64,000 bases of DNA from an uncultured bacterium (GTDB lineage Bacteria > Nitrospirota > Thermodesulfovibrionia > Thermodesulfovibrionales > Thermodesulfovibrionaceae): contig CALLBR010000011.1 of NCBI GenBank assembly GCA_937998865.1, forward strand, positions 20,684-84,683, read 5' to 3'. Below the pieces are notes generated by a model, which was not told the DNA's origin, ran no database searches, and worked only from the letters and a program-made list of their open reading frames with translations. Shown here one piece after another: positions 5,357-51,792 of the stretch; the stretch's first letter is position 1; each line of letters begins with the position of its first letter. Position numbers and translations under genes: made by a program.

Positions 5357-5476
<120 letters not shown>

Positions 5477-10123: not shown

Positions 10124-10221
10124 GGGAGTGTATGGGGCTCTGGTGTCCCCCTTGGACTTCAAATCCAATGTTGCCTGTTAGAAGCAGGCAAGGTGGGTTC
10201 GATTCCCACACGCTCCCGCCA
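10124..10221 (+). tRNA. selC: selenocysteine tRNA (anticodon UCA)
   Basis: 98 nt including encoded CCA. An 8-bp acceptor stem (GGGAGTGT with ACGCTCCC) is followed by a 5-bp T stem (GTGGG/CCCAC), giving the 13-bp coaxial arm of bacterial tRNA-Sec. The D arm is long (GGGG...CCCC). The anticodon loop CTTCAAA carries UCA within TTGGA/TCCAA. A long variable arm is formed by TTGCCTG/CAGGCAA. This decodes UGA as selenocysteine with SelB. The next genes follow in the same direction after an SD, so a shared transcript is possible. Confidence 0.97.
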
Positions 10222-37607: not shown

Positions 37608-37646
37608 TAGCTATATTGGGGGCTACAACCCCCTGTTATATAGCTA
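37608..37646 (-). terminator. large hairpin ending the flagellar operon
   Basis: TAGCTATAT pairs with ATATAGCTA and, inside, GGGGG pairs with CCCCC around CTACAA, giving about 14 bp with a small internal bulge. The flgE stop codon TAG lies within the stem. The bases after it are AT-rich (CTAAAATATTCTCT) without a true U-run, so it may be a terminator, an RNA end-protector or a barrier between flgE and the radical SAM gene. Confidence 0.6.
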
Positions 37647-38915
37647 TCTTACAATGTTCATTAATTCATTAAGCATATTATCAGTTGTTGTAATGACTCT
37701 AACATTTGCCTGATAAGCTCTTTGGGCAGCAATCATACGAATAAATTCTTCTGCTAAGTCCACGTTGCTTGATTCAAGAGAATTTGCATAAATGGTTCCC
37801 ACTCCCACTGTCCCTGGCGCTCCATAGGTGGGATTTCCTGAAGAATAGGATTCGAGAAAGAGGTTCTTCCCTACTTTTGTTAGGTTATAGGGTGCTACAA
37901 ATTTGGAAAGCACCACTTGAGCTACATTCTTTACCTGGCCATTAGTAAAAACTCCTGAAATCACTCCGTTCTGATCTACGGTAACAGCTATTAAATTTCC
38001 AGAAGAGTATCCATTCTGAGTCTGAAACACAACAGCGTTGGGAGAGCCATATTGGGTTGTGTCTTGGAAATTAATTGTTATGGTGGCAGTCTGTGCTCCC
38101 CAGGGTGTGAAATCAAAATTAAAGGAAGTATAAGGTGGAGTGTTAGTAAGAGCTCCCGTATTATTAAAATTTAATGTATAGGGAACCAAACTCACCTCTG
38201 CATAAATTGGATTATTTGGATTATTACTGGTATCGTATACCACATGGGCATCCCAAGTATTTACACCAGTTTTATTAAAATACATGTAGACAAGATGGGG
38301 ATTACCTAAGCTGTCGTAGACAGTTATTGCTGTAGAGTAGTTATAGTTGTTATTAGTAGGCAGACTACTATTTCCTGTAACAGGGTATGTCCAAGTTTTA
38401 GTTGCCTCTCTTGAGTCCAGGTTTAGTTGAGCCCTTATTTCACTTGTTGCTCTTGGATCACTCATTAATCCAGCTAAATAAACATCACCTATACCACCAG
38501 TTATATTTCCCATAGCATCCATTAAATAAGCCTGAAGTCTGTAGCCATTTGGATCAACAACATATCCCTCTTTGTCCAATCTAAATTGGCCTGCTCTTGT
38601 GTAGTAGGTTGGACCATTTGGTTGTCTTACAACAAAAAATCCATCTCCTTCTATTGCCAAATCAAGTGGATTTGCTGTGGTCTCAAGAGTACCTTGAGTA
38701 AACATTTTCTGAATATCAATAATCATGGTACCACGCCCCACTTGCATAGCCGATGTACCACTTAGTGTTTGACTTATTATGTCTCCAAAATTAGCTCTAC
38801 TTGACTTAAATCCTACAGTATTAGCATTGGCAATATTATCTCCAATGACTGATAGAGCAAGTCCATTAGCATTGAGACCGCTTATCCCAGTGAATAAGGA
38901 TGTTAACATACCCAT
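37644..38915 (-). CDS. flgE: flagellar hook protein
   Basis: 423 aa. N-terminal rod motif LFTGISGLNANGLALSVIGDNIANANTVGFKSSR, then the flagellar basal-body signature DLAIEGDGFFVV and YTRAGQFRLDKEGYVVDPNGYRLQ. The C-terminus NVDLAEEFIRMIAAQRAYQANVRVI is the coiled-coil. The middle region is the hook surface domain. SD AGGAGG precedes ATG. It is the last gene of the flagellar run and its stop is in a hairpin. Confidence 0.96.
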   Translation of the reverse strand: MGMLTSLFTGISGLNANGLALSVIGDNIANANTVGFKSSRANFGDIISQTLSGTSAMQVGRGTMIIDIQKMFTQGTLETTANPLDLAIEGDGFFVVRQPNGPTYYTRAGQFRLDKEGYVVDPNGYRLQAYLMDAMGNITGGIGDVYLAGLMSDPRATSEIRAQLNLDSREATKTWTYPVTGNSSLPTNNNYNYSTAITVYDSLGNPHLVYMYFNKTGVNTWDAHVVYDTSNNPNNPIYAEVSLVPYTLNFNNTGALTNTPPYTSFNFDFTPWGAQTATITINFQDTTQYGSPNAVVFQTQNGYSSGNLIAVTVDQNGVISGVFTNGQVKNVAQVVLSKFVAPYNLTKVGKNLFLESYSSGNPTYGAPGTVGVGTIYANSLESSNVDLAEEFIRMIAAQRAYQANVRVITTTDNMLNELMNIVR

Positions 38916-38926
38916 TTTATTACCTC

Positions 38927-39340
38927 CTAAGCTTTGATTTCTCTAATTTGACTCATAGAAAGATAGTTATCACCCACATCAATCTTTAACTTTCCATCTT
39001 CCAATGCAATACCTTGCGCCACATATTCTTTCCCATCAGTAGTGATTATGGTTTTACCAATTATGTTTGATCCAATCATTAAAGCATTTGAATAAATCTG
39101 ATAAGTTGTCAATTCTTCTAAAGTTTTATTCATATTAATAATTTGTTCAAGTGTTGTCATGGCAGTTAATTGTCCCATAAACTCCGTATCCTTTAGTGGG
39201 TTTAAAGGGTCTTGATACTTAAGTTGAGCAGTAAGAAGCTTAAGAAACGCTTCTTTATCAAGTTTATTATTACCTGATACCTTTTTGCCTTCCTGAAACA
39301 TATAGATAGGGTTTTCAAAGATAGATGTTATTTCTGACAT
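38927..39340 (-). CDS. flgD: flagellar hook cap / scaffold protein, short form
   Basis: 137 aa: LDKEAFLKLLTAQLKYQDPLNPLKDTEFMGQLTAMTTLEQI is the conserved FlgD N-domain. After about residue 90 only one small beta segment (GKTIITTDGKEYVAQGIALEDGKLKI) remains, so most of the FlgD Ig and Tudor-like domains of longer homologues (about 220 aa) are lacking. Short versions occur in other bacteria. 12 nt after fliK. Confidence 0.92.
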   Translation of the reverse strand: MSEITSIFENPIYMFQEGKKVSGNNKLDKEAFLKLLTAQLKYQDPLNPLKDTEFMGQLTAMTTLEQIINMNKTLEELTTYQIYSNALMIGSNIIGKTIITTDGKEYVAQGIALEDGKLKIDVGDNYLSMSQIREIKA

Positions 39341-39352
39341 AGTTTAGTCCTC

Positions 39353-40411
39353 CTAAGCAAAATATTCTAAAAATTTTTGTTCTCTTTTATTCTTTTTCTG
39401 ACCTGATGAGGTATCGTAATAACCTTTGTATTCTCGATTAGAATCAAGAAGAAAATCAGAAACTTTTACTCCTGAAGATTGAAGATTACTTTTAATCTCT
39501 GGTATTAGATTTGTTATCATCTCTTTCACCTGAGGGTAATCAACTCTCATCTCTGCTTTTATACCTGAAGTCTCCATAGATAGTTTAATTAAAATTTTCC
39601 CAAGTTCTGGTGGTTCAAGATGGACAACAAGAGTTTTTTGTGAATTGAAAAATCCTTTAAAAATAATGTCTGAAATCTCATGAAGTCTTGTTATAGGTAA
39701 TGCAACTTTTTGTGAATTATCTATTTGTGTAATGTTGGTGTGAGAGCTACTCAGGTGCGAAAATGTATTATTATTTGTCTTTTGCTCTCTTGCCTTCACT
39801 GTATCAATGAGGGATTCTTTCTCGGTATTTAAGTACTCCAAATTAATGAAATTGCTCTTTTGTTTATTGTCTAAAAGAGGTTCACTTTCTAATTTAAATA
39901 GGGACTTTATTGAAGAGTTTTCTTCTTTAAAAATTTGTGTGTTTTTTATAACCTCTTCTAAATTATCAAGAGAATTTATTGAAAGTCTTTCATCCTTTCT
40001 GTTTGAGGGGATTAAAGAGGGATTAATCTCGCCTCTTAATTTCATAGTATTTGTAATATCTATGTTTTCACCTTTGTCTATGGTAATTATTCTATAGAGA
40101 GGGATTAATTCTTCTTTCAGATTTTCAAAATTTTTCATCAAGTTTTCAAGGTGAGAGAAATTTTGCAACTCTAAGGGCGTAAAAGGCATAAAAGGTACAA
40201 ATAGGAGTGATCCTAAATTTGCTGATTTTTCTCCTTCAGAAAGGAGGTTCAAAAAATCTTTTAAAAAGCTCTCTATTTCTGCCTTTGTTTCATTTTGATT
40301 TAGAGAGTTTTCCTTTATCAGATTTATCTGGCTTAACTTTATATTTACTCCGTTTATCATGCAAAAAAGAAAATCAAAATAAATGCCATAAAAAAACTGG
40401 CTTTTTTCCAA
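39353..40411 (-). CDS. fliK: flagellar hook-length control protein
   Basis: Up to 352 aa. The N-terminal two thirds is a low-conservation ruler with Asn/Ser/Glu runs. The C-terminus (about 245-330) is the Flg_hook domain with LVVHLEPPELGKILIKLSMETSGIKAEMRVDYPQVKEMI. Start unclear: TTG 40411 and ATG 40360 (MINGVNIKLSQ) both lack a good SD. The position between a MotE-like gene and flgD is typical. Confidence 0.9.
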   Translation of the reverse strand: MEKSQFFYGIYFDFLFCMINGVNIKLSQINLIKENSLNQNETKAEIESFLKDFLNLLSEGEKSANLGSLLFVPFMPFTPLELQNFSHLENLMKNFENLKEELIPLYRIITIDKGENIDITNTMKLRGEINPSLIPSNRKDERLSINSLDNLEEVIKNTQIFKEENSSIKSLFKLESEPLLDNKQKSNFINLEYLNTEKESLIDTVKAREQKTNNNTFSHLSSSHTNITQIDNSQKVALPITRLHEISDIIFKGFFNSQKTLVVHLEPPELGKILIKLSMETSGIKAEMRVDYPQVKEMITNLIPEIKSNLQSSGVKVSDFLLDSNREYKGYYDTSSGQKKNKREQKFLEYFA

Positions 40412-40444
40412 AATTTTAGCAGTACAAAAGGAGGAAAATTTTTC

Positions 40445-40903
40445 CTATTTGGAAAGCTTTTCCCTTACACTTACTATTTTTTTCGATAAAATAGCTGCTT
40501 TTTCAGGATTCACATTAGCTAAAATCTTAGCAGCTTGACGAGGCTTTATAGCCAGAATCAGTATAGTTGCTGTATCATCATCAAGCTTCTCAAGACGAGC
40601 TGCTGCTTCTTCCGGAGGCATGGATTCGTATATCTTTGCTAATCGCTGATAATTCTCACTTTGTGCTTTTTCCAACTGAGCTTTTAATTCCCCTTGTTCT
40701 TTAATTTTTTTATTTATCTCTTCTTTAAGTTTTTTTAATTCATCAATTTTTTTTGAGAGATCTTCTTGAAGTATCCTATTCCTTTCTTCTTCTATGGAAG
40801 GATTTATCTTCTCCTTGGGTATAGTTTGTTGTCCGATGATTGTTCCCGCAGCTATACCAAAAAAAGTAAGAAAAATTCCTAACAAAAAAGATTTTTTTAA
40901 CAT
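40445..40903 (-). CDS. MotE-like flagellar protein with MgtE-N-type domain
   Basis: 152 aa. N-terminal membrane anchor (FLLGIFLTFFGIAAGTIIG), a coiled coil (about 40-85, KKIDELKKLKEEINKKIKEQGELKAQ) and a C-terminal YESMPPEEAAARLEKLDDDTATILILAIKPRQAAKILANVNPEKAA like MgtE-N/MotE. In some bacteria MotE works as a chaperone for motor or hook proteins. Lies between fliJ (1-nt overlap) and fliK. Confidence 0.85.
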   Translation of the reverse strand: MLKKSFLLGIFLTFFGIAAGTIIGQQTIPKEKINPSIEEERNRILQEDLSKKIDELKKLKEEINKKIKEQGELKAQLEKAQSENYQRLAKIYESMPPEEAAARLEKLDDDTATILILAIKPRQAAKILANVNPEKAAILSKKIVSVREKLSK

Positions 40904-41325
40904 TAGATGCTCCTTTGTCTTACAGAGAGTAAATTTGAAATTATTTTCTCTTCTGTTTTTTCTCTTTCCTTTCTCAAGTTAATCTCTAATTTCTCCTTGA
41001 GTTTTTCAATTTTCTTTCTCTCTTTTATGGATTCTTCATAAATTTCTCTCTGTTTTTCCAGTTCTTCTTCAATTTTATTTAAAAGATCTCTTGATTCTTC
41101 AATTTTTCTGAATAAATACTGAATTTCACTGTATAGATAGTGGAGCTCCTCAGGAGTGAAAACTTCTTTTTTTTCATCGCTAATTTTTTGGAGTCTTTTT
41201 TCCATGTAATTAATTTGATCTTCTAGAGTTTTCATATTCGATAGAATATATATATATCTCTGTTTCTCTAGTTCTTCATCCCATTCTCTGATCTTTAAAA
41301 TCATTTTCAAAGTAAGGTTATTCAT
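40903..41325 (-). CDS. fliJ: flagellar export chaperone FliJ
   Basis: 140 aa, almost entirely coiled coil (EELEKQRYIYILSNMKTLEDQINYMEKRL, then EEELEKQREIYEESIKERKKIEKLKEKLE). FliJ is weakly conserved; the call rests on its place between fliI and the MotE-like gene, its length and its helix pattern. It activates the export ATPase. Confidence 0.85.
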   Translation of the reverse strand: MNNLTLKMILKIREWDEELEKQRYIYILSNMKTLEDQINYMEKRLQKISDEKKEVFTPEELHYLYSEIQYLFRKIEESRDLLNKIEEELEKQREIYEESIKERKKIEKLKEKLEINLRKEREKTEEKIISNLLSVRQRSI

Positions 41326-41327
41326 AT

Positions 41328-42641
41328 TTATTCAAAAATTTTATAGAGTTCTTCTATGCTTTCTTGGAAGCTTGCTTTTGTATTTATGTCCTGTTTTAAA
41401 AAATCATTTATTTTATCAATCATTTTGATGGCATAGTCTAATTGAGGATTAGTTCCCTCTTTATAAGCTCCAATATTAATTATATCTTCATATTTTTCAT
41501 AAGTAGCTAAAATATCAAGTAGCTTCCCAGCGATTTGCACATGTTTTTCCTCTACTATCTCCTTCATTAATCTACTTATACTCTTTAATACATCTATAGC
41601 TGGATAGTGATTTCTATTTGCTAAATCTCTGGAAAGGACAATATGTCCGTCAAGAATAGATCTAGCCGCATCAGTTACTGGATCAGCAAGATCATCTCCT
41701 TCCACTAAAATTGTATATATTCCTGTTATTGAACCTCCAGACTTAACTGCTCCAACTCTCTCAAGAAGTTTAGGCATTAATTTAAAAACTGAAGGAGGGT
41801 ATCCTTTCATGGTAGGTGGTTCTCCAGCAGCAAGACCTATTTCTCTTTGCGCCATGGCAAATCTTGTAAGAGAATCCATAAGCAGCAATACATCTTTACC
41901 TTTTTCCCTAAAATACTCAGCAATAGCAGTAGCAATAAAAGCACCTCTTATTCTTGCCAAAGCAGGAGTATCAGAAGTGGACACAACAACAACAGATTTT
42001 TTTAAACCTTCTTTACCTAAATCTCTCTCAATAAACTCCCTTACCTCTCGACCTCTCTCACCTATTAAGGCTATAACATTTACATCAGCAGAAGTATAGC
42101 GGGCTATCATACCAAGAAGAACACTTTTACCAACTCCGCTTCCTGCCATAATTCCAATTTTTTGACCTTTTCCACAAGTAAGTAATGCATTGATTGCTCT
42201 TATACCAAGGTCAAGGGGCTCTTTTATGATTTCCCTTTCCAAAGGATTAATAGCTTCTCTATAAATAGGATAAGGAGTGCCAGTGAGAGCTAAAGGGCTG
42301 TCAATGGGATTTCCAATGCCGTCTATTATTCTACCTAAAATAGATTCGTCAATTTTTATATAACTTTGTTTTCCCTTTAGGAAGATCTTATCTCCGGGTT
42401 TTATTCCGTAAATTTCTCCTAAGGGTGAAAGTAATGTTACATTATCTCTAAATCCCACTACTTCTGCTTCAATGGAATGTTCATGGGAGATAATCTCACA
42501 AATATCTCCAATGCTTGCGTTTAAACCTTTTGCCTCTACTATGAGCCCTAAAGCCTTTATTACCTTTCCGTAAATCTTAAAGGGCTTTATCTCATGAAGA
42601 ACTTCTTCAGTCTTTTGAATAAAGGACTGAATGGATTGCAT
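41328..42641 (-). CDS. fliI: flagellum-specific export ATPase
   Basis: 437 aa, F1-beta-like. Walker A GIMAGSGVGKSVLLGMIAR, then ALIGERGREVREFIE, Walker B DVLLLMDSLTRFAMAQREIGLAAGEPP and YPPSVFKLMPKLLERVG are diagnostic. Energises flagellar type III export with FliH and FliJ. It overlaps fliH by 35 nt. Confidence 0.97.
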   Translation of the reverse strand: MQSIQSFIQKTEEVLHEIKPFKIYGKVIKALGLIVEAKGLNASIGDICEIISHEHSIEAEVVGFRDNVTLLSPLGEIYGIKPGDKIFLKGKQSYIKIDESILGRIIDGIGNPIDSPLALTGTPYPIYREAINPLEREIIKEPLDLGIRAINALLTCGKGQKIGIMAGSGVGKSVLLGMIARYTSADVNVIALIGERGREVREFIERDLGKEGLKKSVVVVSTSDTPALARIRGAFIATAIAEYFREKGKDVLLLMDSLTRFAMAQREIGLAAGEPPTMKGYPPSVFKLMPKLLERVGAVKSGGSITGIYTILVEGDDLADPVTDAARSILDGHIVLSRDLANRNHYPAIDVLKSISRLMKEIVEEKHVQIAGKLLDILATYEKYEDIINIGAYKEGTNPQLDYAIKMIDKINDFLKQDINTKASFQESIEELYKIFE

Positions 42642-43266
42642 TTTCTAACTCCCGGAATTTCTCCTCCACTTTTGAATCAATAATATTATCCTCTGTTTCT
42701 ATGTAACAACTTCCTTGACTAATTTCATTGGTGGGAATAATTTTTATTGAGGAATTTTCACCGGTTATTTGATCAATTTCTTCCTTTATAGTCGCAAAAT
42801 CCTCAGGGTTTATCTTTATTATTATTTTTTCAGCAACTGAAATCTCCTTTAAAGCTTCTTTTATGATATTTAGCAATATTTTTTTATTGATGGATAATTC
42901 AGTAGAGACAATTTTTTTTGCTATTTTAATAGAAAGTCCTAAGATTTCTGGTAAAAAGCTCTTTATTTGCTCCTCTTTAAAGCTAACAAGATGGTGAATT
43001 ATTTTATCTAAGTCTGATATTTTGCTCTTTAATTTTTTTTGCTCTATTAAAATATCCTCTGAAGCCTTCTTAAATCCTTCCTCATATCCTTTTTCAAAGC
43101 CTTTTTCAAAGCCTTCTTTAAATCCTGAATTGTATCCCTCTTTCTTCGACTCTTCATAAATTTTGAGTATTTCAGAGGAGTCTTTCAGATTTGATTGTTT
43201 ATCCTTTTTTTCATCAAAAGCCGATGGTATATAGGGTTTAATATTAGACGACAAGAGTCTCACCAC
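42607..43266 (-). CDS. fliH: flagellar assembly protein FliH
   Basis: 219 aa. Contains the glycine-repeat helix GYNSGFKEGFEKGFEKGYEEGF typical of FliH, then a coiled coil and the C-terminal FliI-binding domain (EIIIKINPEDFATIKEEI region). Negative regulator and dimeric stator-like partner of FliI. Overlaps fliG by 23 nt and fliI by 35 nt. Confidence 0.93.
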   Translation of the reverse strand: MVRLLSSNIKPYIPSAFDEKKDKQSNLKDSSEILKIYEESKKEGYNSGFKEGFEKGFEKGYEEGFKKASEDILIEQKKLKSKISDLDKIIHHLVSFKEEQIKSFLPEILGLSIKIAKKIVSTELSINKKILLNIIKEALKEISVAEKIIIKINPEDFATIKEEIDQITGENSSIKIIPTNEISQGSCYIETEDNIIDSKVEEKFRELENAIHSVLYSKD

Positions 43267-44224
43267 CCTTTCCGCCTATAACAATTTTACCTTCTTCTTC
43301 TAACCTTCTTGCTACTCTTACTATGTTCATCTGGGCTTTCTCTACATCAGAAACCCTCACAGGACCTTTTGTCTCCATTTCCTCTTTTAGGATTTCTACA
43401 GCTCTACTGGACATATTTTTAAATATTTTCTCCTTTAATTCTTCTGAAGCCATCTTTAAGGCTAAAGCAAGATCATCTGTGGAGATCTCTTTAAGAATCG
43501 TCTGAATTCCTCTATCATCAATATTTATAATATCTTCAAAGGTAAACATGAGTTTTCTAATTTCCTCTGCTAAAATAGGATCTTTTTCCTCAATATTTTT
43601 TAGAATTAACTCTTCTGATGTCCTATCCATTTGATTAAGGATCTCAGCTACAGTTTTGATACCTCCAATTCTTCTTGATTGTGTATATGAACGAAGTTGA
43701 CTCTGAAGCACATCCTCCAATTCAGTTAATATGGTGGGAGATATTTGATCAAGGCTTGCAATTCTTTGAGATACCTCTATTTTTAATTGTTCCGGAAATT
43801 TACTAAGTACCTCTGCTGCTTGAGTGGGATCTAAATGAGCTAATACTATTGCTATTGTCTGAGGATGCTCTCTCTGAAGCATTGTAGCAATGGCAGAAGA
43901 GTCAAGCCATCTAAGAATGTCAAATGCACTAGCACCGCTTTCAATTTTTGATATAAGTTTTGCTGCCTGCTCTTCTCCGAAAGCTTTTTTAAGTATAGTT
44001 TTAATGTATTCCTCATCAACGGTCACAGGAGTATTACCTATTTTTTCAGAAAATTCTTGGATTATGCTCTCTGCCTCTTCTGGTGTGAGTTTTATTCTTG
44101 ACATCATGGGGATTATTCTGGCAAGCTCTATAGGATCAAAGTGTTTAAATAGTTCTGTAGCCGCCTCTTCACCGATTATAGATAGAAAGGCAGCAACTTT
44201 CTCTATGCCACTTAATTTCTTCAT
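43244..44224 (-). CDS. fliG: flagellar motor switch protein
   Basis: 326 aa. LSGIEKVAAFLSIIGEEAATELFKHFDP, the middle EHPQTIAIVLAHLDPTQAAEVLSKFPE (EHPQ patch) and the C-terminal DDRGIQTILKEISTDDLALALKMASEELKEKIFKNMSSRA with conserved charges for MotA contact. Shares a base with the fliF stop. Confidence 0.97.
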   Translation of the reverse strand: MKKLSGIEKVAAFLSIIGEEAATELFKHFDPIELARIIPMMSRIKLTPEEAESIIQEFSEKIGNTPVTVDEEYIKTILKKAFGEEQAAKLISKIESGASAFDILRWLDSSAIATMLQREHPQTIAIVLAHLDPTQAAEVLSKFPEQLKIEVSQRIASLDQISPTILTELEDVLQSQLRSYTQSRRIGGIKTVAEILNQMDRTSEELILKNIEEKDPILAEEIRKLMFTFEDIINIDDRGIQTILKEISTDDLALALKMASEELKEKIFKNMSSRAVEILKEEMETKGPVRVSDVEKAQMNIVRVARRLEEEGKIVIGGKGGETLVV

Positions 44225-45747
44225 TATTCAGCCATCCATTCTCTTAAAATTGAAACTACTTTTTTAGGGTTGTTTCTAACTAATTCGTTTATTTCTTGCT
44301 TAATGTCTCTCTCTTCTGGTACTTTGGTAATAAGTTCAGGAGGTATCTTTTCTGAGATGATTACTTCTTTTGCTCTTCTTTCTTCAGCTGGTTTTCTAAA
44401 TATTTCAAGTAGAGGTTTAATGACAAAAAATATAATAAGAAGTGTAATGATAAGCGGTAATAAGTATTTTAATACAGTCATGGCTAAAGCCACATAGTCA
44501 ATGCCTGGTTTTTCTTCTGGTACTATTTCAAAGGGCATACTCTCTACAATTATTAAGTCACCCCTCTCCTTATTGTATCCTACAGCAGCTTGAACAAGTT
44601 CCTGATACTTTTTTAACTCCTCTTCACTTCTTGGCACATAGACTTTTTTACCTTTTTCCTCTCTATAATTTCCATCAACTAGCACAGCAACCGATATTTT
44701 CTTTATTTGACCTGTTTGTTGCATTATTTTACTTATACTTTTTGAAACTTCATAGTTTATACTTTCCTGCTGTTTTTGAGACTGAATATTCTGAGTAGTA
44801 GTTGGTGGAACTTGTCCAGGCTGATTTGACAATACTCCGGGAATTCCTCCTGTTTGAGGTGCCATTGTTTTTTCTTGGCTTCTCTGTTCACTTCTAATGG
44901 CAATAGTGTCAGGATCGTATTTTTCCTCAAGTTTTTCTACTTTGGAAAAATCAATATCTGCCGATACTCTTACTACTGCTTTTCCTTTTCCCACTATGTT
45001 TTCAAGCATACTTTGAATATTTTTTTCATAGGCTCTTTCAATATTTTTCTTGTACTCCATCTGTTCATTCTGAACAACTTGAGTAAATTCCTTTGGAGAA
45101 GAAAGGAGATTGCCATATTGATCAACTATAGTTACATGCTGAGGTGAAAGCCCTTCAACACTACTTGATACAAGATGAACTATACTTGCCACTTGCTCTT
45201 TAGTAAGATTTCTGCCTGGTTTAAGTTTAAGAACAACAGAAGCTGTTGGATGGTCTTCCTTATCAGCAAAAATTGTTTTTTCTGGTAGGGCAATATGAAC
45301 TCTTGCCTGATCAACTTCTTGTATTTGTTTAATTGTCCTTGCAAGTTCACCCTGCAAAGCTCTTATATAATTTACTCTTTGAGAAAATTCCGTCAATCCA
45401 ATGGATGTCTTATCAAATATCTCAAAACCCACTCCACCACCACTGGGTATTCCTAGGGAGGCAAGTTCAAGCCTTAGTTCATGAACTTTTCCGGATGGAA
45501 CATAAATAGCATTATCTTTTACACTGTAAGGTATTTTTTTCTCCTTTAATTTAGCTATAACATTACCAGCATCTTCTGGAGATAAATTTGAATAGAGTAC
45601 CTGATAATCTTGTTTTGGTAACCATAGAAAAAGAGTGGCAATAAGTCCAATAACTAATACTAAGACAGCAGCAAGAGCAATTTTTTTGTTATTTGGCAAA
45701 TTTTTAAAATTATCTACTATTAACTTTAATCTATCTGCTAGAGCCAT
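44224..45747 (-). CDS. fliF: flagellar MS-ring protein
   Basis: 507 aa. Two transmembrane spans (about 22-44 and 425-446), YQVLYSNLSPEDAGNVIAKLKEKKIPY, the ring-building RARVHIALP (QARVHIALPEKTIF) and GLSPQHVTIVDQYGNLLS. The C-terminus is for FliG binding. Length is normal. Confidence 0.97.
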   Translation of the reverse strand: MALADRLKLIVDNFKNLPNNKKIALAAVLVLVIGLIATLFLWLPKQDYQVLYSNLSPEDAGNVIAKLKEKKIPYSVKDNAIYVPSGKVHELRLELASLGIPSGGGVGFEIFDKTSIGLTEFSQRVNYIRALQGELARTIKQIQEVDQARVHIALPEKTIFADKEDHPTASVVLKLKPGRNLTKEQVASIVHLVSSSVEGLSPQHVTIVDQYGNLLSSPKEFTQVVQNEQMEYKKNIERAYEKNIQSMLENIVGKGKAVVRVSADIDFSKVEKLEEKYDPDTIAIRSEQRSQEKTMAPQTGGIPGVLSNQPGQVPPTTTQNIQSQKQQESINYEVSKSISKIMQQTGQIKKISVAVLVDGNYREEKGKKVYVPRSEEELKKYQELVQAAVGYNKERGDLIIVESMPFEIVPEEKPGIDYVALAMTVLKYLLPLIITLLIIFFVIKPLLEIFRKPAEERRAKEVIISEKIPPELITKVPEERDIKQEINELVRNNPKKVVSILREWMAE

Positions 45748-45749
45748 TA

Positions 45750-46043
45750 TTAAACCTGCATACGGGAAATTTCTTCGTAAGCAGTAAGAACTTTATTTCT
45801 AACCTGTATAAGGGTTTGTAGAGTCATGTCTGCCTTTTCCATGGCGAGAACAACTTGATGAATACTTATTTCTCCCTTGGAAAAGGCTTCAATTGCCTTT
45901 TGAGCTTCTTGTTCCACTTGAGAGGCTTCCTTGATAGCCTCTTTTAAGGCTTTCTCAAAAGAATCCTTTGGTGTTCCTTTTAAATCTTGAACATTTTCTA
46001 AATTTCGATTCAAGAGTTCATTTATAATCTTTATTTCTGACAT
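45750..46043 (-). CDS. fliE: flagellar hook-basal body complex protein FliE
   Basis: 97 aa: SFEKALKEAIKEASQVEQEAQKAIEAFSKGEISIHQVVLAMEKADMTLQTLIQVRNKVLTAYEEISRMQV, the complete FliE domain. Joins the MS ring and rod. 2 nt before fliF, 9 nt after flgC. Confidence 0.95.
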   Translation of the reverse strand: MSEIKIINELLNRNLENVQDLKGTPKDSFEKALKEAIKEASQVEQEAQKAIEAFSKGEISIHQVVLAMEKADMTLQTLIQVRNKVLTAYEEISRMQV

Positions 46044-46052
46044 AAAAGCCTC

Positions 46053-46460
46053 CTAAATTTTTAATAAATCAATGGTCCTTAAAAACATCTCCTTATATGA
46101 GTTTATCATAGTTAAATTGGCTTCGTATGCTCGAGAGGCAGATATAAGATTAACCATTTCTTCCATGGGATTTACATTCGAATATCTAACGTAGCCCTCT
46201 TTGTCTGCATCTGGATGAGAGGGATCAAAGACAACCCTAAAAGGTCTTTGATCCTCAATAATTTCCTTTATATCAACTCCAATAGCTGTAGAGTCATACA
46301 TGTAACTCATAAACAATACATCTTTTCTTCGATAAGGTCCTCCTTCAGGAGTTCTTGTAGAGTTAATATTTGCTAAATTGGAAGCTATAGTGTTAATCCT
46401 TATTTTTTGAGCCTCTAAACCTGTAGCAGATACTTTTAAAGGTAAAAATAAATCTTTCAT
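46053..46460 (-). CDS. flgC: flagellar rod protein FlgC
   Basis: 135 aa. LPLKVSATGLEAQKIRINTIASNLANINSTRTPEGGPYRRKDVLF and C-terminal VNPMEEMVNLISASRAYEANLTMINSYKEMF are canonical. Proximal rod. Shares a base with flgB. Confidence 0.96.
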   Translation of the reverse strand: MKDLFLPLKVSATGLEAQKIRINTIASNLANINSTRTPEGGPYRRKDVLFMSYMYDSTAIGVDIKEIIEDQRPFRVVFDPSHPDADKEGYVRYSNVNPMEEMVNLISASRAYEANLTMINSYKEMFLRTIDLLKI

Positions 46461-46795
46461 TATCTACCTCCCTTAATAGCATCCTTTAACATCCTTATTC
46501 GTGTAGAAAGGAGTTGAACGGCTGTATTGTACATCAAGTGCGTCTCCGTAAGCTTTGTCATTTCAATTTCTATGTTTACGGTATTTCCATCTCTATTAGG
46601 CATTGTTGTCGGTGACTCAATAATAGAATAGGATATATCCTTTGACTCCAAAGCTTTTTTGAGTGTAGCTTGAAAATCTATGTCTTTTGCTTTATAGTTT
46701 GGAGTGTCCACGTTAGCTATATTGGAGGCTAGAATTTTCTGCCTATAGGCACAAATATCCATTATTTTCTGCAATAAATCCATTGATCTATCCAT
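46460..46795 (-). CDS. flgB: flagellar rod protein FlgB
   Basis: 111 aa with QKIMDICAYRQKILASNIANVDTPNYKAKDIDF and MTKLTETHLMYNTAVQLLSTRIRMLKDAIKG. First structural gene of the run. SD GGAGG lies 8-9 nt before ATG. A sigma-54 element lies in the 41-nt gap upstream. Confidence 0.95.
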   Translation of the reverse strand: MDRSMDLLQKIMDICAYRQKILASNIANVDTPNYKAKDIDFQATLKKALESKDISYSIIESPTTMPNRDGNTVNIEIEMTKLTETHLMYNTAVQLLSTRIRMLKDAIKGGR

Positions 46796-46820
46796 TTTTT
46801 AAACCTCCAAAAATTTAATA

Positions 46821-46836
46821 AACAAATTTCATGCCA
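46821..46836 (-). promoter_or_regulatory. sigma-54 (-24/-12) promoter of the flgB operon
   Basis: On the (-) strand TGGCATGAAATTTGTT fits the RpoN consensus TGGCAC-G-R-NNN-TTGC-W with correct GG-N10-G spacing; the differences are T for C at the sixth base and T for C after TTG. It directly follows the TAA of the sigma-54 response regulator. Transcription would start near 46810, just before the flgB SD. Confidence 0.7.
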
Positions 46837-48111
46837 TTATAATTCTTTAAGTCCGTAATCTCTTATTTTATTCCTAAGAGTTCTTACGCTGATGCCCAAA
46901 ATTTTCGCTGCTTGTGTTCTATTGCCCTTAGTTTTCTTTAAAGCATCAATTATCATGTCTTTTTCCACATCCTTTAATTTTCCAGCCTTTGGAACCTCAA
47001 AATCCTCTAATTCTATATCCAAGTTTTGAGGTGAATGTATTTCTGATTCCTGACTTAAAACAGCAATCCTGTATATAAAGTTTTCTAACTCTCTTACATT
47101 ACCATTCCAAGGCTTTTTAATTAGGTATTGCTTCATTTCCTCTGATAGATATAGATTTTTTGAAATTTTATGGGATAGTCTCCTTAGGAAAAATTCAGCT
47201 AAAGGTATTATATCCTCCTTTCTCTCTCTTAAAGGTGGAATTCTTATGGGAAAAACATTTATTCTATAGTAAAGATCTTCTCTGAAATTACCCTTTTTAA
47301 CCTCTTCCCATAGATCTCTATTTGTTGTGGCAATAATCCTCACATCAACAGGTATAGGCTTTGTTCCACCCACTCTATCAACTTCTTTTTCTTGAATTAC
47401 TCTCAATAGTTTTGCCTGAAGTTTATATGCCATTTCACTTATTTCATCTAATAAAAGTGTTCCTTTATCAGCCAACTCAAATTTACCTGGTTTTCTCTCA
47501 GTGGCACCAGTGAAAGCGCCTTTTTCGTAACCGAACAATTCTGCTTCAAGAAGTGTTTCAGTTATGGCAGCACAGTTTATTGCTACAAAAGAATTATTAG
47601 CTCTATTGCTATGTTTATGAATATATTTTGCGATTACTTCTTTGCCTACTCCGCTTTCACCAGTGAGTAAAATCGTAATGTCTGTCTTAGCTATTTGTCT
47701 CGAAATTTCAAGAATTCTTTTCATCTCAGGAGACTCTGCCACTATTTCATCATTCTGGGGAATTAATCTTGATACTAATTTTTTTAGATCATCAAGAGAA
47801 AAAGGTTTAGTAAGATAATCAACAGCACCAAGCTTCATAGCTTTAACAGCATCCTGAACATTGGCATATCCCGTCACTACAATTACAGGTATATATATTC
47901 CTCTTTGACGAATTTCTGACAAAAATTGTATACCATCCATTTTAGGCATTTTTACATCTGTTATGATAAGAGAAAAATCTCTGATGTTTACATTGGAAAG
48001 CACATAAAGAGGATCCCTATAGAATTCACAATTAAATCCTATACGCCATAAGGCTTCCTTTAGAGCAAAGCCCATATCTGGTTCATCATCTATAATTAAA
48101 ACTGACCTCAT
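46837..48111 (-). CDS. sigma-54-dependent response regulator (FlrC/FlgR type)
   Basis: 424 aa NtrC type. Receiver (DDEPDMG, phospho-Asp in LIITDVKMPKMDG, VTGYA, LTKPFS), AAA+ domain with GESGVGKEVIAK, the sigma-54 contact loop YEKGAFTGAT, and Fis-type HTH GNRTQAAKILGISVRTLRNKIRDYGL. Overlaps the histidine kinase by 4 nt. A sigma-54 promoter directly follows its stop, so it very likely activates flgB onward. Confidence 0.94.
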   Translation of the reverse strand: MRSVLIIDDEPDMGFALKEALWRIGFNCEFYRDPLYVLSNVNIRDFSLIITDVKMPKMDGIQFLSEIRQRGIYIPVIVVTGYANVQDAVKAMKLGAVDYLTKPFSLDDLKKLVSRLIPQNDEIVAESPEMKRILEISRQIAKTDITILLTGESGVGKEVIAKYIHKHSNRANNSFVAINCAAITETLLEAELFGYEKGAFTGATERKPGKFELADKGTLLLDEISEMAYKLQAKLLRVIQEKEVDRVGGTKPIPVDVRIIATTNRDLWEEVKKGNFREDLYYRINVFPIRIPPLRERKEDIIPLAEFFLRRLSHKISKNLYLSEEMKQYLIKKPWNGNVRELENFIYRIAVLSQESEIHSPQNLDIELEDFEVPKAGKLKDVEKDMIIDALKKTKGNRTQAAKILGISVRTLRNKIRDYGLKEL

Positions 48112-49199
48112 TCTAAAGGCAAGTATATTGCAAATTCTGTGCCTTTATTAGGTGTGCTCGTTACTTTAATTTTACCACCATGGGAAGAGATTATACTATT
48201 GGTTATACTAAGTCCTAATCCTGAACCTCTGTCTTTTGTGGAGAAGAAAGGCTCAAAAATTTTGTCAAGTATTTCTTCATCAATTCCATGTCCTGTATCT
48301 CTTAAGTTAATCCTCAAAAATTTTTCTTCCTTTAATAATTCTACAGTTAATGAGCCTCCTTCTGGCATTGCCTGATAGGCATTAACAATGAGGTTTATAA
48401 GGGCTTGTCTAAATAAAGGTGGGTCTATTAGAATTTCAAAGTTACCTTCAGACTGAAAGTCTATTTTAATTCCTACTCTTTGCAATATTCCTTCAAATTC
48501 AGCAATTATCTCTCTAATTAAAATATTAATATTAGTTTTCTCTCTCTTGGGAGTAATTCCTTTTGTAAAGCTTAACATGTTTTCAAGGGTATTTCTAAGC
48601 ATGCTCACAGCACCAGATATTCTCCTTGCATACTCTCCATGTATAGTATCTGAAAGATCCTCGGCAATCATATTGGCAAAAAGTTCTATACTTCCAAGCG
48701 GATTTCTTATTTCATGGGCTATTTTCATAAGAAGAGATCCCATGGCAGTAAGCCTTCGGTTCCTCTCATTCTCTGCTTCTAACTCCTTTATTCTGGAAAT
48801 GTCTTTACAAATAAAAACTATACCAATGCTATTTCCTTCGGAGTCTAAAACCTGAGAAGAGGAAACTATGGCATAGAAAGGCTTAATGGAATTAGCAGGA
48901 TATACAAGTTCACCTTCAATTTTTATAGGAAGATCTCTCTTCCCAAGGACTTCTTCAGAACTTATACCAAAAAGCCTCTCTGCTGATTTATTGACTAATC
49001 TTATGACATGATCCCTGTCAAAAAAAACAACAGCAATGTCTATACTGTCAATTATACTGCTTAAAAGTCTTTTCTTCTCGTCAACTTCCTCTGTTAAAAG
49101 CTTTATCTTTTCTTCCAGTACTTTATAGTATTTTACTAATGCCTCAGAAGCTGTATTTATTTTTAAAATTGCCTCGTTTAAAAGTTCTTTCTGCATCAT
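48108..49199 (-). CDS. PAS-domain sensor histidine kinase (FlrB type)
   Basis: 363 aa, soluble (no transmembrane span). N-terminal coiled coil, PAS domain (about 45-150, IIDSIDIAVVFFDRDHVIRLVNKSAERLFG), HisKA with phospho-His in KIAHEIRNPLGSIELF, and HATPase with INLIVNAYQAMPEGG and GSGLGLSI. Likely phosphorylates the next-encoded regulator and reads flagellar assembly state, as in FlrB/FlgS. Confidence 0.93.
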   Translation of the reverse strand: MMQKELLNEAILKINTASEALVKYYKVLEEKIKLLTEEVDEKKRLLSSIIDSIDIAVVFFDRDHVIRLVNKSAERLFGISSEEVLGKRDLPIKIEGELVYPANSIKPFYAIVSSSQVLDSEGNSIGIVFICKDISRIKELEAENERNRRLTAMGSLLMKIAHEIRNPLGSIELFANMIAEDLSDTIHGEYARRISGAVSMLRNTLENMLSFTKGITPKREKTNINILIREIIAEFEGILQRVGIKIDFQSEGNFEILIDPPLFRQALINLIVNAYQAMPEGGSLTVELLKEEKFLRINLRDTGHGIDEEILDKIFEPFFSTKDRGSGLGLSITNSIISSHGGKIKVTSTPNKGTEFAIYLPLE

Positions 49200-50806
49200 A
49201 ATTTTTCAAGTAATTCTTGAGCTGCCTTTGCCAATTCTCCACCAGAATTAGCTACTTTTTCAAGATAAGATTTATCTTTATTGATTTTTCCATATTGATA
49301 GTAAGCCCAAAGGAGGGACTTATTGTGGAGATTTCCTAATTCAATGGCTTTTTTATAGAATTTTGAAGCTTCCTCTATTTTCTTTGACAAATAGTAAAAA
49401 TCAGCCACTTTTAGTAAAGCCTCAGCATTTCCCAATTCCCCTGATTTTGTCCAAAGCCTTAACGCCGCTTTTTTATCTCCCACTGAATATTCTAAATCTC
49501 CAGCTATTAATATCATCTGGGGGTCATCAATGTTTTTAATTGCTTTTCTCATATAATTTAGAGCATTTTTGAGATCACCCTCTTTATATAGGATCTGGGC
49601 ATATAATCCTGCTGCTTGCGGTTTTTTTTCTTTAATTCCCTCAAGCATTTTTTTTGCCTCACTTAATTTCCCCTCAAATATCAATATTTTAGCATAGGGT
49701 ATAAGTGCCTCTCCTTTTCTTGGTCCTGATAAAACTTTCTTTAGCACATTTTTTGCTTCTATTATTTTGCCTTGGTTTATTAGAAACTCTCCATAATAAA
49801 TTAAAACAGAGGCGTCAGAACTGAAAAAGGGATAAAGCTTAACTATATACTCTGCAGCTTTTTGTGGATTTTCACTTTCTAAAATCTTTATTGTCTCTTC
49901 CATTTTTTTCATTTTTATTTGAGGATCTCTGAAAGTTACAAGTAATTTTAGAGCCTCATCGTAATTTTTTTGAGTTAAATAAGCTGACAGGAGTTTTATC
50001 TTGAACTCATCAGTGGGTACATATAAATAGATTTCTTTTCCAATTTTTATTGCCTCCTCTACCTTTCCTTGTTGTAAATGTAAATCAAAGAGCATATTCT
50101 TTGCTTTAATCTTGTTCAATAATTTGTCATCTTGAGCTATTATTTTTGATAAAATTTTTTCTGCTTCTTGAAATTTTTTTGCCCTTATCAATAACTCAGC
50201 TCTTTCAATTAGAAAATTTTTGCCTTTAAGTTTCGGATTCTTTTCAAATTCTTTTAAAGCCTCCTCTAATTTACCTGTTGATGCAAGATATTTTATCTTT
50301 AAAAGGTGCGCATCAATATTTTCTTTAAAATCAACGTAGTTCAGCCTATTTAATAAGCTCTCAACAGCCTTCATATCTCCTTTTTCATAGGAAATCCAGC
50401 CTAAACCTATTTGTGCCTCTTTTTCAAAGGGAGGTGTAACTTTTTTAAGATAATACTCTGCGTCTTTAATTTTACCCATTTTCAAATAGCTTAAGCCTAA
50501 GTAAAGACTACCCTCATTGACATAAGGACTATCTTTGAAATCCCTTAAAAGTCTTCTTAAATAAAGGGTTGCTTCTGGGTAATTATTCAAGAAATACTCA
50601 CATTTACCTGTATTAAGAAGAGCTCCATCTGCTATGTTTGGATACTCCATAAATTTTTTGTAATAATCCCTACATTTAAGATATTCACCGGATTTTATAA
50701 ATTTTTCTCCTTCTTTTAGAATATCCTCTGCCAAAGAAGAGAGGGGAAACCAAAGACAAAGAAAAATCAAAAAAAACATAATTTTTTTTATCTCAATTGC
50801 TTTCAT
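49196..50806 (-). CDS. exported TPR-repeat protein in the flagellar regulatory run
   Basis: 536 aa. Signal peptide (IMFFLIFLCLWFPLSSLAE) then TPR-like helix pairs throughout (for example SPYVNEGSLYLGLSYLKMGKIKDAEYYLKKV, AEALLKVADFYYLSKKIEEASKFYKKAIELG). Probably periplasmic. Placed between the upstream sigma-54 regulator (14-nt overlap) and the histidine kinase (4-nt overlap), so it may act in flagellar or envelope signalling. No close family recognised. Confidence 0.85.
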   Translation of the reverse strand: MKAIEIKKIMFFLIFLCLWFPLSSLAEDILKEGEKFIKSGEYLKCRDYYKKFMEYPNIADGALLNTGKCEYFLNNYPEATLYLRRLLRDFKDSPYVNEGSLYLGLSYLKMGKIKDAEYYLKKVTPPFEKEAQIGLGWISYEKGDMKAVESLLNRLNYVDFKENIDAHLLKIKYLASTGKLEEALKEFEKNPKLKGKNFLIERAELLIRAKKFQEAEKILSKIIAQDDKLLNKIKAKNMLFDLHLQQGKVEEAIKIGKEIYLYVPTDEFKIKLLSAYLTQKNYDEALKLLVTFRDPQIKMKKMEETIKILESENPQKAAEYIVKLYPFFSSDASVLIYYGEFLINQGKIIEAKNVLKKVLSGPRKGEALIPYAKILIFEGKLSEAKKMLEGIKEKKPQAAGLYAQILYKEGDLKNALNYMRKAIKNIDDPQMILIAGDLEYSVGDKKAALRLWTKSGELGNAEALLKVADFYYLSKKIEEASKFYKKAIELGNLHNKSLLWAYYQYGKINKDKSYLEKVANSGGELAKAAQELLEKL

Positions 50807-51776
50807 AATTAATGCCTAATCTTTTCATTTTTTCAATGAGGGTAGTTCTGTTAATTTTCAAATACTTTGCAGCCTTACTCTTTATTCCTTTATTTACACT
50901 CAAGGCATGAAGAATTAACTTCTTTTCATAATCCATTACAAGGGCATTGAAGTCCATTTCTTTGGCAAAGGGATTAAAATCCTCATGGATTAAATCTCTG
51001 GGGATAGAATTCTCTTGAAATCTAATCCTCTCTGGAATATCCTCTAAACTTACCTTTCCATTTTCACTAAATACATAAAGCCTCTCAATTAAATTCTCCA
51101 GTTCTCTAACATTGCCAGGCCAGTTATATTTAAAGAACAAGTTCATAACTTCGCTGTTAAGATTAAGTTTGTAGCCAAATTTCTCTGAAAACTTTTCTAT
51201 AAAGTAATCACAAAGAAGAGGTATATCCTCCTTTCTTTCTCTTAATGGTGGAAGCAGAAGGGGTACTACATTGAGCCGCCAAAATAGATCTTCTCTAAAC
51301 TCTCCTCTCTTAACTTCCTCTTCTAAATTCTTATTAGTAGCTGCAATAATTCTAACATTCACGTTTATAGGTTTGGTAGAACCAATCCTTTCAAAGCTTC
51401 TCTCTTGAAGAACTCTTAGAATTTTCACCTGTAAATTTATTGGCATATCTCCTATTTCATCAAGAAAAATAGTCCCCTCATTGGCAAGCTCAAATCTACC
51501 AGGTCTTGAAAAAACAGCTCCTGTAAAAGCTCCTTTTTCATAGCCAAATAACTCTGCTTCAAGAAGTTCTGAAGGAATTGCTGCACAATTAACTGGAATA
51601 AAAGATTTCTCAGCTCTGGGGCTAAGCTCATGAATGAGCTTAGCTACAAGTTCTTTTCCTGTTCCACTCTCTCCTGTAATAAGAACTGTACTATCACTTT
51701 TGGAAATCTTATCTATTAGTTTAAGAATCCTCTGAATTGCCAGAGATTTTCCAATTATTTTTACACTCTTTTTCAT
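50793..51776 (-). CDS. sigma-54-dependent activator without receiver domain (flagellar regulator, FlrA-like position)
   Basis: The track starts at TTG 51827, but MKKSVKIIGKSLAIQRIL from ATG 51776 fits the family; neither start has an SD. About 327 aa: AAA+ with GESGTGKELVAKLIHE, YEKGAFTGAV loop and FREDLFWRLNVVPLLLPPLRERKED, then Fis-type HTH SKAAKYLKINRTTLIEKMKRLG. It lacks a receiver, so it is controlled by expression or a partner. First gene of the run, preceded by two inverted repeats. Confidence 0.9.
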   Translation of the reverse strand: MKKSVKIIGKSLAIQRILKLIDKISKSDSTVLITGESGTGKELVAKLIHELSPRAEKSFIPVNCAAIPSELLEAELFGYEKGAFTGAVFSRPGRFELANEGTIFLDEIGDMPINLQVKILRVLQERSFERIGSTKPINVNVRIIAATNKNLEEEVKRGEFREDLFWRLNVVPLLLPPLRERKEDIPLLCDYFIEKFSEKFGYKLNLNSEVMNLFFKYNWPGNVRELENLIERLYVFSENGKVSLEDIPERIRFQENSIPRDLIHEDFNPFAKEMDFNALVMDYEKKLILHALSVNKGIKSKAAKYLKINRTTLIEKMKRLGINYESN

Positions 51777-51792
51777 GTCATAAATATGACAT
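51775..51792. promoter_or_regulatory. perfect inverted repeat at the start of the flagellar regulator gene
   Basis: ATGTCATA-TT-TATGACAT is an 8-bp perfect inverted repeat with a 2-nt centre, sharing two bases with the start codon at 51776. It can be read as TGTCA-N6-TGACA, the geometry of CRP/FNR-superfamily operators (CooA prefers TGTCA/CGACA). It could also fold in mRNA over the start codon. Confidence 0.55.

Follow-up and report, generated by a model that had tools for sequence, protein, structure and literature searches.

The window (the whole stretch of 64,000 nucleotides that was analysed) carries on its minus strand a regulator cluster followed by a long run of flagellar genes. It comes from a draft genome of 1.75 Mb, and among named organisms the heat-loving Thermodesulfovibrio are its closest relatives. 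The cluster is ordered EBP2-TPR-kinase-RR. The response regulator RR (46837..48111) is composed of a receiver, a sigma-54 AAA+ domain with GAFTGA and a Fis HTH, the domain set of the FlrC/FleR type, and resembles FlrC, FleR and FlbD: FlbD ranks first among the NCBIfam models, under its cut-off, and the PDB matches include the FlrC and FleR structures. The histidine kinase (48108..49199) has PAS, HisKA and HATPase domains and is FlrB/FleS/FlgS-like, and a TPR protein (49196..50806) separates it from EBP2 (50793..51776), a FleQ/FlrA-like protein with a sigma-54 AAA+ domain and a Fis HTH and without a receiver. The best PDB match of EBP2 is FleQ (8p53, 2.5e-93), extending across the AAA+ and HTH domains. 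Families f1 and f12 and two genomes of f3 have no N-terminal regulatory domain in EBP2, and we call the protein FleQ-like rather than FleQ for this reason. These labels are anonymous; f1 is the Thermodesulfovibrio lineage, and f12 is termed its sister family because its proteins rank next in similarity, a placement made without a tree. Elsewhere in the window are a 5S rRNA (5358-5474) and a selenocysteine tRNA (10124-10217; Rfam RF01852, 75.6 bits).

The flagellar run, also on the minus strand, opens with the rod gene flgB (46460..46795; NCBIfam TIGR01396, 109.7 bits, above cut-off). It continues with flgC-fliE-fliF-fliG-fliH-fliI-fliJ and a motE-like gene (40445..46460), which are closely spaced or overlapping and keep the same order in relatives, and with fliK, flgD and flgE (37644..40360), which are syntenic in relatives. 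Names other than flgB were assigned by sequence reading and gene order, not in all cases by family-model scans. The genes fliF and fliG thus sit inside the flgB block.

Between RR and flgB lies a sigma-54 promoter motif, TGGCATGAAATTTGTT (minus strand, 46836-46821), with TGGCAT as the -24 and TTGTT as the -12 element. It is located directly 3' of the RR stop codon TAA (46839-46837) and 25 nt upstream of flgB, and is followed on the minus strand by TATTAAATTTTT, a ribosome-binding site read from the sequence as GGAGG (46808-46804) and the flgB ATG at 46795. Compared with the published consensus TGGCACG-N4-TTGCW (as quoted in PMC2725144), the GG of the -24 element and the spacing are correct, and the site departs at two positions: a T replaces C in the -24 element, and likewise in the GC dinucleotide of the -12 element. 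The initial annotation had described this motif, its proper -24/-12 spacing and its position right after the regulator's stop codon, all of which are borne out here, and had left the substitution in the -12 element unmentioned. GC at -12 is the majority dinucleotide in known sigma-54 promoters and not a strict requirement; the GT of the window copy weakens its sigma-54 membership without excluding it. From the consensus geometry, transcription is predicted to start at 46810, 12 nt past the -12 base, giving a predicted leader about 15 nt long, in which the Shine-Dalgarno sequence would begin near +3. No sigma-70-like site on the flgB strand and no terminator were found in the RR-flgB spacer of the window. 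The host genome has a single rpoN match (E = 1.9e-60) with the RpoN box ARRTVAKYRE intact.

The pattern TGGCAY-N5-TTGYW occurs 17 times in the 1.75 Mb host genome, and therefore about 1e-4 chance copies are expected in the 41-nt RR-flgB spacer. Across the order, GG[CA]A[CT]-N5-TTG is present in 30/30 RR-flgB spacers, drawn from 13 species of the genus (including the window's own), four f12 genomes and 13 genomes of more distant families, and RR precedes flgB in every one of them. For the genus, all 13 species have the site beginning 0-4 nt past the stop codon of RR, whereas anything from 33 to 135 nt separates it from flgB; spacer length and flanks differ among relatives while the core stays, so that the conservation reads as a phylogenetic footprint. 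In one genome, G002 (L006), the spacer is 139 nt long and seems to contain an inserted repeat between promoter and flgB, and there too the core adjoins the RR stop. The -12 dinucleotide at flgB is GC in seven of the 13 species and GT in the other six, including that of the window. A species-wide shift from GC to GT is ruled out by the sister species G009, which has GC at flgF and GT at flgB.

One could still suppose that the match at flgB is fortuitous and that flgB is transcribed solely by read-through from the regulator operon, as the close gene spacing, the imperfect -12 element and the spacer lacking a terminator might suggest. Dinucleotide shuffles, however, predict 0.49 of the 30 spacers to carry the site, and the same motif recurs upstream of flgF, fliK and fliL, which makes coincidence highly improbable. 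Since none of the 30 genomes compared has lost the site from its position, we take it as almost certainly a genuine sigma-54 start and, leaving the activator aside, hold its assignment as a sigma-54 promoter with high confidence. The conserved site and the synteny throughout the order support the earlier proposal that flgB has a sigma-54 promoter, placed after a kinase-regulator pair.

A genome-wide scan for further sites before flagellar genes, which the initial annotation had suggested, finds them at flgF, fliK and fliL, conserved in place and of the same type as the flgB site; the flagellum would thus have at least four sigma-54 switches, at flgB, fliK-flgDE, flgF and fliL. The second promoter within the window, TGGCATTTATTTTGAT (40373..40388, minus), lies before fliK-flgD-flgE and is kept in congeners. 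These sites mostly read TGGCAY-N5-TTGA[AT], with TGGTAT as the -24 element in L167 and TTGTA as the -12 element in L161. Given this promoter, the fliK start is probably the ATG at 40360. The site lies nearly at that codon (40360-40388), a spacing that recurs in congeners, and the predicted fliK transcript would accordingly be leaderless or almost so. A single promoter had originally been proposed for the whole run from flgBC to flgDE; the promoter proposed at flgB stands, but fliK, flgD and flgE also have a conserved sigma-54 site and palindrome of their own.

This palindrome, AGGAAAAATTTTCCT (40432..40446, minus), is located in the 3' end of the motE-like gene as a candidate RR enhancer, and a weaker second one, GGGAAAAGCTTTCCA (40450..40464, minus), lies 18 nt upstream of it; the tandem arrangement is also seen in f12. 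A palindrome near to AGGAAAAATTTTCCT, followed at 58-92 nt (start to start) by a sigma-54-like site, is found in the motE-like/fliK gap of 12/13 genomes of the genus including the window, the exception being L168. The same pairing occurs upstream of flgF in 10 of 11 congeners. Exact AGGAAAAATTTTCCT has only two copies in the host genome, at fliK and flgF, and among the sigma-54-like sites listed genome-wide a strong AGGAA palindrome lies upstream only of these two genes. The only listed site with a strong GTCA box upstream is that of fliL, where the promoter TGGCATATTATATGCT is preceded at 77 nt by GTCAAAAAATTGTC; this operon extends to fliM, fliN, fliP, fliR, flhB, flhA, flhF, flhG and fliA. 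A further box of this kind, GTCATATTTATGAC (51777..51790, minus), is found at the EBP2 start codon as a candidate autoregulatory site, and is unchanged in every congener whose EBP2-start stretch was covered. Since it abuts the start codon, EBP2 may have a very short translation leader. From their distribution, the FleQ-box-like GTCA-N6-TGAC at fliL and at the EBP2 start is probably the binding site of EBP2, and AGGAAAAATTTTCCT at fliK and flgF is probably that of RR.

Several other matches were set aside. Two GTCA-N6-TGAC copies (C17:112558, C17:129854) and, in flgA, the sigma-54-like TGGCAAGGAAATTGCA lie inside coding sequence and are likely due to chance. One-mismatch copies of AGGAAWWWWWTTCCT were dropped, being about as frequent as the reversed control and having a sigma-54-like site within 250 nt at only one of 13 loci checked. 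A tentative sigma-54-like site, AGGCACAGAATTTGCA (48129..48144, minus), lies upstream of RR in the 3' end of the kinase gene; its codons GGC ACA GAA TTT GCA rank 10 of 3671 windows in codon conservation, and it could be a hidden RR promoter or just coding sequence. Over the class outside the order, the combination of palindrome and -24 pattern is sparse. Sigma-54-like sites were also seen at L115, L119, L121 and L124, before genes for a type IV pilin-like protein, a small secreted protein, a small protein encoded after an NtrC-type regulator, and one other, which lies upstream of a probable acetate permease.

In families other than f1 and f12, the position of EBP2 could be established in 13 stretches. 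It has an N-terminal extension of receiver length in 11 of them (a receiver by Pfam in both stretches scanned), and 11/13 have a sigma-54 site just 3' of EBP2. At eight of these 11 sites a GTCA-type box scoring 12 bits or higher lies 55-66 nt upstream, and 10 of the 13 stretches have, upstream of flgB, an AGGAA-type palindrome that scores 16 bits or higher. The palindrome models were built partly from sites that were later scored, so the scores of those sites are not independent; the post-EBP2 boxes were not among them. The pattern fits a cascade in which EBP2 would control the kinase and RR, and RR in turn flgB. In f1 and the three f12 genomes with EBP2 covered, EBP2 is without the receiver, the flgB palindrome is missing, no post-EBP2 promoter was found and a GTCA box lies at the EBP2 start. 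The coupling is imperfect: G025 has no sigma-54 site after EBP2, two f3 genomes without the receiver keep the flgB palindrome, and an f10 genome without that palindrome keeps the EBP2 extension. A strict coupling of receiver loss to palindrome loss is contradicted by these f3 and f10 genomes.

We propose that RpoN-RNA polymerase would be poised at the flgB site until opened by an ATP-using activator, and that transcription of the flgBC-fliEFGHIJ block would begin about 15 nt upstream of flgB. The kinase would phosphorylate the adjacent RR, which would then activate the flgB promoter and, from AGGAAAAATTTTCCT, those of fliK-flgDE and of flgFG with the genes after them. EBP2 would act on the promoters with GTCA-N6-TGAC, i.e. 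on the fliL operon with its export genes, flhF, flhG and fliA, and on its own start. RR seems to be the most likely activator of flgB because its gene always precedes the flgB promoter and because most of the more distant families have an RR-type palindrome upstream of that promoter. RR control of flgB in Thermodesulfovibrio is thus plausible, and a sigma-54 promoter with RR as its activator, taken jointly, is a reading we favour by a little over an even chance. Against this combination are the GT at -12, the very short predicted leader and the fact that neither candidate enhancer is near flgB; for the palindrome, the latter comparison depends on its presumed assignment to RR. In the genus, no strong AGGAA palindrome was found within -450 to +300 of flgB, and RR would therefore need a degenerate or distant site there, or EBP2 has taken over. 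The earlier claim that the kinase-regulator pair turns on flgB accordingly stays a proposal here, since in the genus the likely RR palindrome accompanies fliK and flgF, with none near flgB.

A variant of RR control would place the enhancer downstream, inside flgB itself, in the manner of V. cholerae FlrC, which uses downstream sites (PMC6504787). Palindrome-like constrained codons, AGGCAAAAAATTCTT, lie at about +51 of the gene (46731-46745); AGG CAA AAA ATT CTT rank 4 of 3671 five-codon windows in codon conservation, and 11/13 species of the genus have a palindrome-like version. These versions nevertheless score 9.2-9.4 bits against at least 13.4 for the model-building sites, and the copy in the window species, AGGCAGAAAATTCTA, is degraded to 1.8 bits, so we consider such an enhancer improbable.

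The position of fliF and fliG bears on the alternative that EBP2 rather than RR activates the flgB promoter in Thermodesulfovibrio and the sister family. FliF and FliG are a prerequisite for the corresponding kinase-regulator pairs of V. cholerae, P. aeruginosa and C. jejuni (PMC7064773), and with both genes inside the flgB block, control by RR only would need basal read-through to start. Were flgBC-fliEFGHIJ an operon of the EBP2 tier, with RR driving only fliK-flgDE and flgF, this conflict with the checkpoint would be removed (PMC7064773), and the position of fliF and fliG one level higher than RR would agree with that of the FlrA class II genes (PMC6504787). The GTCA box at the EBP2 start in f1 and f12, together with the missing RR-type palindrome near flgB and the missing post-EBP2 promoter, points in the same direction. 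However, the window species has no GTCA-N6-TGAC in the interval from -500 to +300 around flgB, and among congeners none recurs at one position there. The missing RR-type site and the inclusion of fliF and fliG in the block thus speak for EBP2, and adjacency and the state of most distant families for RR; activation by EBP2 is, in our estimate, rather unlikely, and RR remains the preferred activator. Regardless of this choice, the initial view of the regulators as an upper tier needs extension: the pair is present, but the cluster holds a second sigma-54 activator, EBP2 (50793-51776), whose best solved relative is FleQ, and the upper tier is therefore more than the kinase-regulator pair.

With the receiver, the post-EBP2 promoter and the RR enhancer at flgB gone, and with a FleQ-like box at the EBP2 start, the cascade of f1 and f12 may have been rewired, flgB, fliF and fliG having moved from RR to EBP2 while RR kept fliK-flgDE and flgF. 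We regard this as a tentative and fairly unlikely scenario.

As a sigma-54 promoter the flgB site belongs to a known kind, represented at flgB of Geobacter, Vibrio and Pseudomonas. Sigma-54 control of flgB is known in these genera and in Campylobacter (PMC2725144, PMC7064773). In Geobacter sulfurreducens, sites with the consensus TTGGCACGGTTTTTGCT are predicted before flgB (GSU0407) and fliL (GSU0420) (PMC2725144); the present genome likewise has sites before flgB and the fliL operon, but its flgB site has TTGTT at -12 and a kinase-regulator pair directly upstream. The cluster resembles FlrA-FlrBC of V. cholerae in combining a FleQ/FlrA-type activator with a kinase (FlrB) and a regulator (FlrC), and the cascades FlrA-FlrBC and FleQ-FleSR parallel the order EBP2, kinase/RR and flgB (PMC6504787, PMC7064773). 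FlrC drives the sigma-54 promoters at flgB and flgF, whereas fliF and fliG of V. cholerae are FlrA-dependent and apart from the flgB operon, here being within the flgB block (PMC6504787, PMC7064773). Unlike FlrA, EBP2 lacks the N-terminal domain in this genus. In P. aeruginosa flgB requires sigma-54 and FleSR (PMC7064773). The boxes at fliL and the EBP2 start are similar to the FleQ box published for that organism, GTCAAT-N2-ATTGAC (PMC10723142); FleQ boxes are also given as GTCaNTAAAtTGAC or GTCAaAAAAtTGAC, and in one ChIP-seq study no robust consensus was definable (PMC10723142, PMC6120874). The second palindrome class, AGGAAAAATTTTCCT, which we infer to belong to RR, sets the present system apart from FleQ-FleSR, and our literature search for its core string together with flagella found no paper. 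The FlgSR pair of C. jejuni activates the sigma-54 rod and hook genes (PMC7064773), a similar association of kinase-regulator pair and sigma-54 flagellar genes, but RR scores 381 bits, far below the 750-bit cut-off of the FlgR model, and the cluster adds a FleQ-like activator. The literature search found no paper on sigma-54 control of flgB in Thermodesulfovibrio, and the main text of two sigma-54 surveys of 2011 and 2025 (PMC3162934, PMC12316311) gives no flgB promoter for this group.

The comparative evidence extends the sigma-54 flagellar hierarchy, described so far mainly in Proteobacteria and Campylobacter, to Nitrospirota, and candidate DNA sites are proposed for two classes of activator. 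Thermodesulfovibrio, without an RR-type enhancer at flgB, can be compared with most other families, which retain one, and fliF and fliG inside the flgB block offer a direct test of the FliF-FliG checkpoint described in polar flagellates. If the rewiring is true, the lineage would provide a natural case of a promoter switching its activator while the sigma-54 core stays.
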